This document shows, in pieces, positions 11,501-54,500 of a stretch of DNA of 64,000 nucleotides. The DNA is from Liolophura sinensis (Eukaryota > Mollusca > Polyplacophora > Chitonida > Chitonidae): the NCBI RefSeq assembly GCF_032854445.1, contig NC_088303.1:12531501-12595500 (forward strand). Direction: 5' to 3'. Below the pieces are notes generated by a model. It was not told the origin of the DNA. It saw only the letters and a list, made by a program, of their open reading frames with translations, and did not search any database. Positions within the stretch are counted from its first letter, which is position 1; every line of letters begins with the position of its first letter. A program made the position numbers and the translations under genes.

Positions 11501-14500
11501 GTTGTGGTTATTTTGTCTTCAGGACGGAAATATAATTTCATCTGTGGTGTTGTCTGATCAACAGACAGAGAACGACAAAAAACTACCCAATGCCATCATT
11601 GAAAACAACCAACCAATGAACAGTGAAGATCAGGAAGTTAAAGGGTGATCGATGAAGTAAATGTGAAACAGGAAAGTGACTCGATGACCAGTGAGATTAC
11701 AGATGCCTCAGGGATTTTAACCAATGAGATGATAAAGGAGGAAAAACATTTACATGAAGAAAGTGTGAAAGAAGAGGAGAAAATCAAAGAAAAGCAAACA
11801 GAAGTAAGTTTGCTTGTGCTTTCTGAAGAGAGAAAATACACCATTTAAAAATGTATTCATTGGGGGTAACCTGACTGACTCTCCAAAGAAATGGCCCTAC
11901 TCTTAATATTTTTTGGAGCTTTCAGTTGAAAATTTTTTTATCTGATTTCTGCAAAATCCCTATCTCTTTCACTCGCCATCGTTGAGTTATGATCATACTA
12001 ACAACACGCTCAAGCAATGGGAGACTTGAGGCCGAGCTATAGAGATGAGCCAAAGGACAGTAGAATGCGTCATTTTCTTTTGTGACGTGGCAGTGTGTGT
12101 GTACTTCATATATGTTTTATGAGCACAAGTACACAGATAATTGTGACGCAGTAAAGGAAAAAACAAATGAGTTCACAGCTTTAAACCATTTTGATACAGG
12201 CAGGAAGGAGTTTTATGAGTTCCCCATTATGTTTTGCTGGTCATGATACAGTAGCTCTTGCTGATCCAGGAATGAATCTGAGTAAACTTATGTATAACCA
12301 TAAATGCTTATTGTTGGGTGGAGTCTTCTAGCATTTCCTCATTTAGCTCTTGGTATCTCAGTAATGTGAGTTGGGCATCATGCCTGTTTTTTTTTTTGTG
12401 TTTTTTTTGACAATGGTATGGCAAATCAGTTATGCAGCAATATTAATAGATCGGCCTTGCGCCCGGTCAGCTACATGGAGACACTAGCCGTAGGATTGTA
12501 ACCAGAAAACAATTCTGAACACGTCAGCAAGCAAAGTGCTTATGGAGGTGTGATTTGTCCTGTTTACCAGCTGATGTGAGAGATGTGTGATTTGTCCTGC
12601 TTACCAACTGATGTGGGAGATGTGTGAATATTGATGTTGTGATTTGTCCTACTTACCAACTGATGTGGGAGATGCGTGAATGTTGATGATGTGATTTGTC
12701 CTGTTTACCAGCTGATGTGGGAGATGTGTGAATGTTGATGATGTGATTTGTCCTGCTTACCAACTGATGTGGGAGATGTGTGAATGTTGAGGTTATGATA
12801 TGTCCTGTTTACCAGCTGATGTGGGAGATGTGTGAATGTTGAGGTTATGATATGTCCTGTTTACCATCTGATGTGGGAGATGTGTAAATGTTGAGGTTAT
12901 GATATGTCCTGTTTACCAGCTGATGTGGGAGATGTGTGAATGTTGATGATGTGATTTGTCCTTTTTATCAGCTGATGTGGGAAATGTGTGAATGTTGATG
13001 ATGTGATTTGCCCTGTTTACCAGCTGATGTGAGAGGTGTGTGATTTGTCCTGTTTACCAGCTGATGTGAGAGGTGTGTGATTTGTTCTGTTGACCAGCTG
13101 ATGTGGGAGATGTGTGCATGTTGATGATGTGATTTGTCCTGTTTACCAGCTGATGTGGGAGATGTGTGAATGCTGATGATGTGATTTGTCCTGCTTACCA
13201 GTTGATGTGGGAAATGTGTGAAATGTTGATGATGTGATTTGTCCTCTTTATCAGATGATGTGAGAGATGTGTTAATGTGGATGTAATTTTTCATACCAGC
13301 TGATGTGAGAGATGTGTGAATGTTGATGATGTGATTTGCCCTGTTTACCAGCTGATGTGAGAGGTGCGTGATTTGTCCTGTTTACCAGCTGATGTGAGAG
13401 ATGTGTGATTTGTGCTGATGCGGGAGATGTGTGAATGTTGATAATGTGATTTGTCATCTCTATCAGGTGATGTGAGAGATCTGTTAATGTGAGTGTAATT
13501 TTTCATACCAGCTGATGTGAGAGGTGTGTGATTTGTCCTGTTTACCAGCTGATGCGGGAGATGACAGAGGATCTACGGGAGGAGCGGTACAAGCGGCTGC
13601 AGTTCCTGCTGAGTAAAAGCAACATGTACACCCAGTATCTGATCCAGAGGATGGAAAGGCAGAAGGAAGAGGAGAGGAAGCGCCGTGAGAGGATCCTCAA
13701 GAAACGTGCTGCGCTCCAGAAGAAGAAGGAGGAGGCTAAGAGGCAGGAGGAAAACACAGAGGTAAATTAGGTTGCTTGAAGCCACAAAGACTGTCAATTG
13801 GCTTGTCTGTCTTAATGAAGAGGATAAATACTCCGAATAAACTGAACAGTTTTACATGGTTATAAATGTGATATTTAACAAAGCCTCACTCTCCCTTTTT
13901 TTTTTCCAGACCAGTGGAATGTCGACGCAAGAACTGAAAAAAGGAAAAATGAATAAATTCTTGTAATTCCTTAAACTTGTAAAATTTCTTAAAAGACCAT
14001 ATGTATAGTATAGTTGATTTCAAACTTCTTGTGTATGGCAGAAATCATCAGAAACTATGGACAACTCAGCAAGGCTAGCCTCAGGCAGCATTGTAGAAAC
14101 ACGGAGAGGCAAACGAGAGGCTCTGTCAGATTCTCAGGAAAGCTCTCAAGATAGTCAAAGTAAGACCCAGAAATTAATAAAAACATGCTTACAGTTATTA
14201 GTAGAATGTTACCGTGGCTAGTCAGTTAGTAGCCAGATGGTTCATAACTTATGTGAACACGCTTGCAACATTAAAGCAAAGGTTGTTACAGTATGTACCC
14301 TAATTATTCAACCATTTCGCATATGAGACAATTTCAGTGCAGTTTATGCACATTTATTATTTAATTTTGGAGACAAAACTACATTGGTTGGATTGGTCAA
14401 TTCCAGGACTTAAAAAAACTAAAATAAACACCTAGCAAACATGCAAAAAGGTTGAATTCTTGGTTTGGTGCAAATGTTACACTGGCATCGTGGTTTCATG

Positions 14501-51500: not shown

Positions 51501-54500
51501 TGTGGAAGAAATTCTTCTCCTAGATAAAACAAGGGACAGGGAAACTGTAAACTCATAGAAATCATACATACCTGTTAACTTCTGTTTTTGTTAGCAGAAT
51601 TATGAGATTGACCAAGGGTTATGAGGGACTTGCCATATTAAATTCTATAATTAATTTACAGCAGAACCATGCATTTACAGTACTTTATGTCTAACTGGAG
51701 TGTAATTCCTCAATTGAAAACCTCAAATTTGCTTGATATTTGAACATTTAAAGCTTAACCTAAACAAGCCTGAAATCCATGTAGAAAAGCTCTAACCATT
51801 AAAATCTTACTCTTCATTTCAATCTTCATAGCATCCTAACCTCTACCATAAAGTGAATTCTCCCTAATGATCCCAATGTCTGACCTTACTGTGTACACGG
51901 GAATGACAGTATTCCAGAAAATTCTCCTTACCATTTACATTAATGTAGAATTGGCATTAGCCACCAGTACAACTACATTAGGATTCAGACAAAACTTACC
52001 GTTTGCATTAACGTGGACTCCGCATTGGCCACCAGCACAAATACATCAGGATTCCAGACAAAACTTACCGTCTGCATGAATGTAGACTCTGCATTTGCCA
52101 CAAGTAAAAATACATCAGGATCCAGACAAAACTTACCGTTTGCATTAATGTGGACTCTGCATTGGCCACCAACACAAATACATCAGGATCCAGACAAAAC
52201 TTACCATTTGCATTAATGTAGACTCTGCATTGGCCACCAACACAAATACATCAGGATCCAGACAAAACTTACCATTTGCATTAACGTGGACTCTGCATTG
52301 GCCACCAGCACAAATACATCAGGATCCAGACAAAACTTACCGTTTGCATTAACGTGGACTCTGCATTGGCCACTAATACAATTACATCAGGATCCAGACA
52401 AAACTCACCGTTTGCATTAACGTGGACTCTGCATTAGCCACCAGCACAAATACATCAGGATTCAGACAAAACTTACCGTTTGCATTAACGTGGACTCTGC
52501 ATTGGTCACCAACACAAATACATCAGGATCCAGACAAAACTCACCGTTTGCATTAACGTGGACTCTGCATTGGCCACCAACACAAATACATCAGGATCCA
52601 GACAAAACTTACCATTTGCATTAACGTGGACTCTGCATTGGCCACTAATACAAATACATCAGGATCCAGACAAAACTCACCGTTTGCATTAACGTGGACT
52701 CTGCATTAGCCACCAGCACAAATACATCAGGATTCAGACAAAACTTACCGTTTGCATTAACGTGGACTCCGCATTGGCCACCAGCACAAATACATCAGGA
52801 TTCCAGACAAAACTTACCGTCTGCATGAATGTAGACTCTGCATTTGCCACAAGTAAAAATACATCAGGATCCAGACAAAACTTACCATTTGCATTAATGT
52901 GGACTCTGCATTGGCCACCAACACAAATACATCAGGATCCAGACAAAACTTACCATTTGCATTAATGTGGACTCTGCATTGGCCACTAATACAAACACAT
53001 CAGGATCCAGACAAAACTCACCGTTTGCATTAACGTGGACTCTGCATTAGCCACCAGCACAAATACATCAGGATCCAGACAAAACTTACCGTTTGCATTA
53101 ACGTGGACTCTGCATTGGCCACCAGCACAAATACATCAGGATCCAGACAAAACTTACCATTTGCATTAACGTGGACTCTGCATTGGCCACCAGCACAAAT
53201 ACATCAGGATCCAGACAAAACTTACCGTTTGCATTAACGTGGACTCTGCATTGGCCACCAGGACAAATACATCAGGATCCAGACAAAACTTACCGTTTGC
53301 ATTAACGTGGACTCTGCATTGGCCACCAGCACCAATACATCAGCGTCCAGACAGAACTTACCGTTTGCATTAACGTGGACTCTGCATTGGCCACCAGCAC
53401 AAATACATCAGGATCCAGACAAAACTCACCGTTTGCATTAACGTGGACTCTGCATTGGCCACCAGGACAAATACATCAGGATCCAGACAAAACTTACCGT
53501 TTGCATTAACGTGAACTCTGCATTGGCCACCAGCACAAATACATCAGGATCCAGACAAAACTTACCGTTTGCATTAACGTGGACTCTGCATTGGCCACCA
53601 GGACAACTACATCAGCGTCCAGACAGAACTTACCGTTTGCATTAACGTGGACTCTGCATTGGCCACCAGCACAAATACATCAGCGTCCAGACAGAACTTA
53701 TCTATCCACTCATCCAAATCAGGAGAAACATCAATCCCAGGGCTGAAAACAACATCAGAACTGGTTCAATCCAAACCAACCTTACAAACAAATTTGACCC
53801 CACTATCAAGGGTTGGTACAAATCTTCAAACGTGATACCAGAGTAGTCTCCCTTACACTCTAACTATGACCTCTAAAGCCAAAACCCTAGTATCTGGAGA
53901 CTGAACAAATGTCAGAATTTGTCATGAAAACATGTGTCCAACATGCTGTAACTTGTTAAAGAATTGTTTATTTATTTATCAATTTTGATCGAGATGTATT
54001 CAACATTGTTTCATAAAATGATGGACATCAGGTTTATCATACCTAAAACTATGGTTAAAAAACACTGATAGCTGAAGAGTCCACAATAATTAATTCTTCA
54101 GCAGTTTATGTAAAATTTTCCGGATGTGACCAGATATTTCTTATGTGACGAGTACGCATGTTATGCTGGAATAACATCATGAACGTTCTTGGAAATACAA
54201 TACAGAGTCATTAGTGGTTAGACGTGTGCAATGGGTGATGCTTGTGTTTGTGCGGGATGTCTCACTGGCAAAAGTGAAAATGACACAAAAACTCTGTTTT
54301 CAAATAGCCCTCAGAAACTATATTAAAACAAGAGCAGTTTCAATTTTTTTACAATTCAGGAAACCAAGCCAGACTATCATAACCCTTTTTTAGAGTCGGA
54401 TAGACTTTGAGACTGGAGCAGCTCTTAAAAGCGACATCTAAACCAGACAGTTTGACCATACTTTCTGAGGGCCTTCCGCTGTAGCCAGAGCAACATTTTA

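Follow-up and report, generated by a model that had tools for sequence, protein, structure and literature searches.

Amphioxus-like tandem repeats of splice junctions in a mollusc, the chiton Liolophura sinensis

Tandem repeats of exon/intron borders, called "mirages", have been described in amphioxus Adh3 and in the amphioxus globin genes BflGb6 and BflGb9 (PMC3087553, with reference to Canestro et al. 2002); the mirages in Adh3 and the globins seem not to disturb regular splicing, and both polymorphism and somatic instability have been reported for them (PMC3087553). Boundary tandem repeats are also known from human segmental duplications (PMC2812944). Here we describe arrays of this kind in the chiton Liolophura sinensis, where six large tandem arrays in a 64-kb stretch of contig NC_088303.1, positions 12,531,501-12,595,500 (hereafter the window, which denotes the whole stretch), each hold a splice junction, fixed by protein homology, of the HELLS gene (at 12.5, 20.2, 22.5, and 25.0 kb) or of a mitofusin gene (at 43.2 and 53.7 kb). 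A first-pass annotation, made from the letters of the window alone, had taken these arrays for an undescribed class; amphioxus mirages (PMC3087553) and human boundary repeats (PMC2812944) were already in print, and the chiton arrays extend that known class to a new phylum.

The comparison with amphioxus holds at several levels: in both animals the border has undergone minisatellite-like duplication, both 5′ and 3′ splice sites are affected, and many but not all copies keep the AG or GT. Amphioxus mirages have units of 10-160 bp and show partial concerted evolution; in the chiton, adjacent copies are slightly more alike in 3 of the 5 arrays tested (mitofusin at 53.7 and 43.2 kb, and XPO1, a gene introduced below; permutation P = 0.04, 0.014, and <0.002, respectively). 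The chiton arrays differ from mirages in belonging to the phylum Mollusca and in reaching 26 copies, so that a cephalochordate and a mollusc display the same kind of structure in independent lineages. Human boundary repeats are likewise minisatellites across splice borders, and can create new introns or splice forms (PMC2812944), but they occur in recently duplicated genes with a mean of about 4 copies of 30 bp, whereas the chiton arrays reach 26 copies and sit in conserved genes of housekeeping type. The Rogers model, in which duplication of an AGGT proto-splice site leads to intron gain (PMC3087553), also invokes tandem duplication with splice signals; it yields new introns, whereas the chiton arrays enlarge existing introns and no new intron is shown. 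In the open-access literature searched, which misses most subscription journals, we found no report of junction arrays in chitons or other molluscs.

Junction arrays in HELLS and mitofusin

The source assembly (GCA_032854445.1; 609.5 Mb in 632 scaffolds, N50 37.34 Mb) was built from 14x HiFi sequence with a mean read length of 8,347 bp (PMC11068029); Liolophura japonica is an earlier name of the species, since changed to L. sinensis (PMC12441733). Arrays were detected by Tandem Repeats Finder (TRF), and junctions by a purpose-written spliced protein-to-genome aligner with human proteins as probes; the probe sequences served no other purpose, and the matches and E-values show that they work. 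Two HELLS junctions were corrected by hand ahead of the statistics. Junctions within arrays were set by protein continuity, independently of the repeats, as across mitofusin donor 53633 and HELLS donor 25014 (IIYDSDW/NPQSDLQ in the latter, the slash here and below marking the junction). The gene identities are confirmed by Pfam domains (SNF2-rel_dom, 5e-81, and Helicase_C, 3e-25, for HELLS; Fzo_mitofusin, 8.7e-65, for mitofusin) and by PDB searches, which agree for HELLS and return MFN2 at 2.6e-150 for mitofusin. The arrays and gene models are as follows.

12548..13563, + strand: HELLS 3′ splice-site array; 37/52-bp units, about 19 copies; true acceptor TTTACCAG/CTGATG, exon from 13549 (TRF and spliced alignment)
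20176..20571, + strand: HELLS 5′ splice-site array; 75-bp unit, about 5 copies; true donor CATCAG/GTGAGT at 20203 (TRF and spliced alignment)
22506..22920, + strand: HELLS degenerate 5′ splice-site array; 56-bp unit; true donor AACAAACT/GTAAGT at 22526
24997..25936, + strand: HELLS 5′ splice-site array; 48-bp unit, about 20 copies; true donor GACTGG/GTGAGT at 25014 (TRF and spliced alignment)
42272..43172, - strand: mitofusin 5′ splice-site array; 46-bp unit, 19.6 copies; true donor GTTCAGCA/GTAAGT at 43136 (TRF and spliced alignment)
51927..53700, - strand: mitofusin 5′ splice-site array; 68-bp unit, 26 copies; true donor TTAATGCAAACG/GTAAGT at 53633 (TRF and spliced alignment)
19015..19120, + strand: marginal HELLS 5′ junction duplication; GTCGGCTCATACA/GTAAGT, degenerate copy near 19083
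50829..51145, - strand: small mitofusin intron-end repeats; CATCAGCATCTATTGCTTTTGTCAG/, acceptor 50829, exon from 50828
11672..31883, + strand: HELLS (LSH, SNF2-family) exons with homology support; 15 introns called by spliced alignment
39579..57219, - strand: mitofusin exons with homology support; 16 introns called by spliced alignment

TRF finds all six large arrays where the first pass had placed them, with unit lengths (52/37, 75, 56, 48, 46, and 68 bp) that nearly match those it gave. Five TRF arrays contain the real junction (HELLS acceptor 13548/13549 and donors 20203 and 25014; mitofusin donors 53633 and 43136), and in these the unit spans the exon/intron border. In the sixth, at 22.5 kb in HELLS, TRF sees only 22669-22920, and donor 22526 is joined to the array through degenerate copies. 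We refer to the splice-site motifs in the additional copies as decoys. Among aligned decoys, the GT is kept in 24 of 24 copies (mitofusin 53.7 kb), 18 of 18 (mitofusin 43.2 kb), and 18 of 19 (HELLS 25.0 kb), and GTGAGT is intact in 4 of 4 at HELLS 20.2 kb; at HELLS 22.5 kb the second copy reads GTAAGT and later copies carry GAAAGT, a dead donor; and the decoy AG of the HELLS 12.5 kb array is kept in 11 of 15 copies.

At least eight introns had been proposed as affected. The six large arrays stand; the two small cases are marginal, although self-similarity ranks the HELLS donor at 19.0 kb 12th of 290 donors (score 29 against a 95th percentile of 24) and the mitofusin acceptor at 50.8 kb third of 290 acceptors (43 against 22). 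The repeats at 50.8 kb are mainly intronic and end at the junction. As the first pass also held, 5′ and 3′ junctions are both hit, in unrelated genes, and the arrays are local and mutually unrelated.

Frequency and placement in twelve blind genes

The window had been chosen in the first pass for its junction arrays. A blind sample was drawn from twelve genes chosen without inspecting their repeats (PRPF8, CLTC, XPO1, VCP, SF3B1, POLR2B, EEF2, SERCA, ATP1A, POLR2A, UBA1, and a dynamin), with 263 introns (median 495 bp) and 71 in-gene arrays. Minisatellites are present in 55 of the 263 introns, and junction arrays in 6 (2.3%): i) XPO1 has a donor array of 25 copies, 98% alike, of a 76-bp unit that includes 53 exonic bases; ii) PRPF8 has donor junction arrays in two introns; iii) POLR2B has one donor junction array of five copies; iv) ATP1A has a small junction array, two copies of 15 bp; and v) VCP has a two-copy acceptor duplication whose decoy has lost its AG. 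EEF2, where one donor region has an old, dispersed copy, is a probable further case. Together with the window, acceptors are affected in HELLS and VCP, and donors in HELLS, mitofusin, XPO1, PRPF8, and POLR2B. Junction arrays are a real, genome-wide phenomenon in this chiton and extend beyond the window, as expected of the recurrent process that the first pass had proposed; its estimate that roughly one intron in five is affected does not carry over, the typical rate being about 2% of introns and the window an outlier.

Two of these loci also carry sequences resembling short interspersed elements (SINEs). The duplicated VCP unit (225 bp; locus L022, about 4079-4530) consists of a SINE-like tail (GGCGTAAAACACCAATCAAATAAATAAAT), the acceptor, and the start of the exon; at POLR2B (locus L026, about 4050) a tRNA-like SINE start (GGCCTCCGTGGCTCAGTCGGTTAGCGC) adjoins the end of the junction array.

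For the random-placement null, the founding unit of each array was placed at random within its intron, overlap with one border being permitted. In the blind genes 6 arrays span a junction where 6.4 are expected (5 donor and 1 acceptor, against 3.2 and 3.2). Since this count equals the random expectation, there is no general targeting of splice junctions, contrary to the first-pass proposal that junctions are the target of the process; placement mostly looks like chance, and any preference for 5′ splice sites is mild at most. The blind genes show no excess of arrays that properly span donors (5 vs 3.2, P = 0.21) or of acceptor-touching arrays (1 vs 3.75). A modest excess appears only when arrays starting up to 5 bases inside the intron are counted as donor-touching (9 vs 3.75, P = 0.010), which makes donor and acceptor contacts 9:1 (P = 0.02); the 5-base margin was picked after data inspection, and the P values for a donor excess, that for the flush starts below included, are therefore optimistic.

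Four arrays in the blind genes lie flush with the donor, starting at intron base 1-4 and including no exon; they are found in PRPF8 (loci L012-L015), SF3B1 (L024-L025), and the dynamin (L039-L042). The GT of the repeated donor has been lost in copies of at least two of the four (SF3B1 and PRPF8 5839).

Origin and maintenance of the arrays

We consider it probable that the arrays are mirage-type minisatellites which arose by ordinary birth and expansion and are tolerated at junctions. The genome is rich in intronic minisatellites, and a founding tandem duplication would occasionally straddle an exon-intron border by chance; such a duplication would be tolerated because the exon always keeps one intact copy beside it, which is the first of the array at a donor and the last at an acceptor, and the extra copies would turn into intron. 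The array could then grow and be partly homogenised by slippage or unequal exchange, like any minisatellite. The donor excess, and the asymmetry between donors and acceptors, would reflect selection, because a surplus donor lies downstream of the site in use and should be harmless, whereas an acceptor duplicated upstream of the exon may draw splicing to itself. The random frequency of spanning arrays, their local origin, and the similarity of neighbouring copies support this mechanism, as do the recurrence of such arrays in other genes and the more frequent loss of decoy acceptors than of decoy donors (below). We infer that splicing uses the exon-proximal donor and yields normal mRNA.

Several observations weigh against so neutral an origin. 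Within the window, 5 of 11 in-gene arrays span a junction where 0.85 are expected (P = 0.00035), though the window was preselected, and 6 of its 31 introns are affected compared to 6 of 263 in the blind genes (Fisher P = 0.0005); at the blind rate, 2 to 8 such 64-kb windows are expected genome-wide, a figure that ignores gene-to-gene variation, which would raise it. Neutral placement also leaves unexplained the flush arrays of the blind genes (starts at intron base 1-4: 4 vs 0.55 expected, P = 0.002). Finally, positions +1 to +6 of the decoy donors diverge less (0.018) than windows drawn at random from the same repeat units (0.052; P = 0.0015). This conservation persists when CpG columns are dropped (P = 0.005) and when columns are matched for base composition (P = 0.02), in a test devised after the raw counts had been seen.

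Alternatively, the 5′ splice site might be a mutational hotspot, the donor motif, or R-loops or paused transcription at it, supplying one breakpoint of the duplication; arrays would then start on or over the donor more often than at random. The donor-touching excess, the starts at intron offset 0-5, the 9:1 ratio of donors to acceptors, and the 4 donor arrays in the window where 0.43 are expected are all consistent with such a hotspot. However, arrays that truly span donors show no excess, the 5-base margin is post hoc, the flush arrays often have no working donor in their units, and selection against acceptor duplication accounts for the asymmetry equally well; we regard a hotspot as possible but rather unlikely.

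The conservation of the decoys might indicate a different kind of departure from neutrality. In eight of the nine donor-spanning arrays, 96 of 97 aligned decoys retain the GT, and most of them the whole hexamer; the ninth is the HELLS 22.5 kb array, whose amplified copies carry GAAAGT. Overall, 97 of 102 decoy donors keep GT and 11 of 16 decoy acceptors keep AG, so that loss is more frequent among acceptors (5/16 vs 5/102, Fisher P = 0.004, copies within an array not being independent). Decoy donors might be under selection if turnover can delete the first copies and so set a decoy beside the exon, in which case only fully splice-competent arrays would survive and the array would act as a reservoir of interchangeable donors. 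The hexamer divergence, with and without the CpG and base-composition controls, points in this direction, but per-array ranks of donor conservation, when combined by Fisher's method, are not significant (P = 0.20), nor are the four blind arrays alone (P = 0.27); the blind arrays have hardly diverged, and the conservation signal thus comes from the window arrays. The HELLS 22.5 kb array, moreover, has amplified a dead donor, and we think selection on decoys unlikely. A related and quite doubtful proposal is that the true splice site is simply the current end of a moving array, turnover handing the functional role from copy to copy while selection preserves the decoys; if true, this would be a route for renewing a splice site over time without losing function.

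Neither the assembly nor mobile DNA offers a credible account. False expansion of single-copy junctions might be feared at a depth of only 14x HiFi (PMC11068029), but units within arrays differ by up to about 16%, similar arrays occur in several of the 12 other genes, and the largest array (1.9 kb) is shorter than the mean read (8.3 kb), so that collapse or false expansion is very improbable. The splice signals in many arrays and the SINE-like tail of the VCP unit might instead suggest a mobile element or introner-like insertion carrying splice sites; each unit derives, however, from the adjacent exon of its own gene, and the units are mutually unrelated. We rejected this reading, which is extremely unlikely, after a genome search with one unit, the 68-bp unit of mitofusin, matched only its own array; the unit is unique to its locus and hence not a mobile repeat, as the first pass had also maintained.

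Other features and implications

The window also contains a minisatellite outside both gene models, at 61212-63414 (about 67 copies of a 33-bp unit by TRF), and, at 2857-3927 on the - strand, an intronless open reading frame of 357 amino acids with a match to phytanoyl-CoA dioxygenase (PhyH, E = 6.8e-8). Elsewhere in the assembly, contig C99 (108,685 bp; L009-L011) consists of seven head-to-tail mitochondrial genomes, one about every 15.52-15.54 kb, and is probably an unresolved circular mitochondrial contig; another copy lies on C632. The mitochondrial gene order is nad3-nad2-cox1-cox2-atp8-atp6, which we take to fit a mollusc. Amphioxus was rejected as the source of the DNA on this gene order and on the agreement of the assembly figures with the published chiton genome; a search for GFP-family genes also gave no match, a result that says little by itself.

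The chiton arrays extend an obscure and lancelet-centred observation to molluscs, and the estimate of their frequency (about 2% of introns), set against random placement, is, we believe, the first of its kind. They also amount to a natural splicing experiment, in which dozens of near-perfect 5′ splice sites stand in a row and the one nearest the exon is presumably the only one in use; RNA-seq data for L. sinensis are public and can reveal which copy is used. Lastly, such arrays are raw material for the tandem-duplication model of intron gain.

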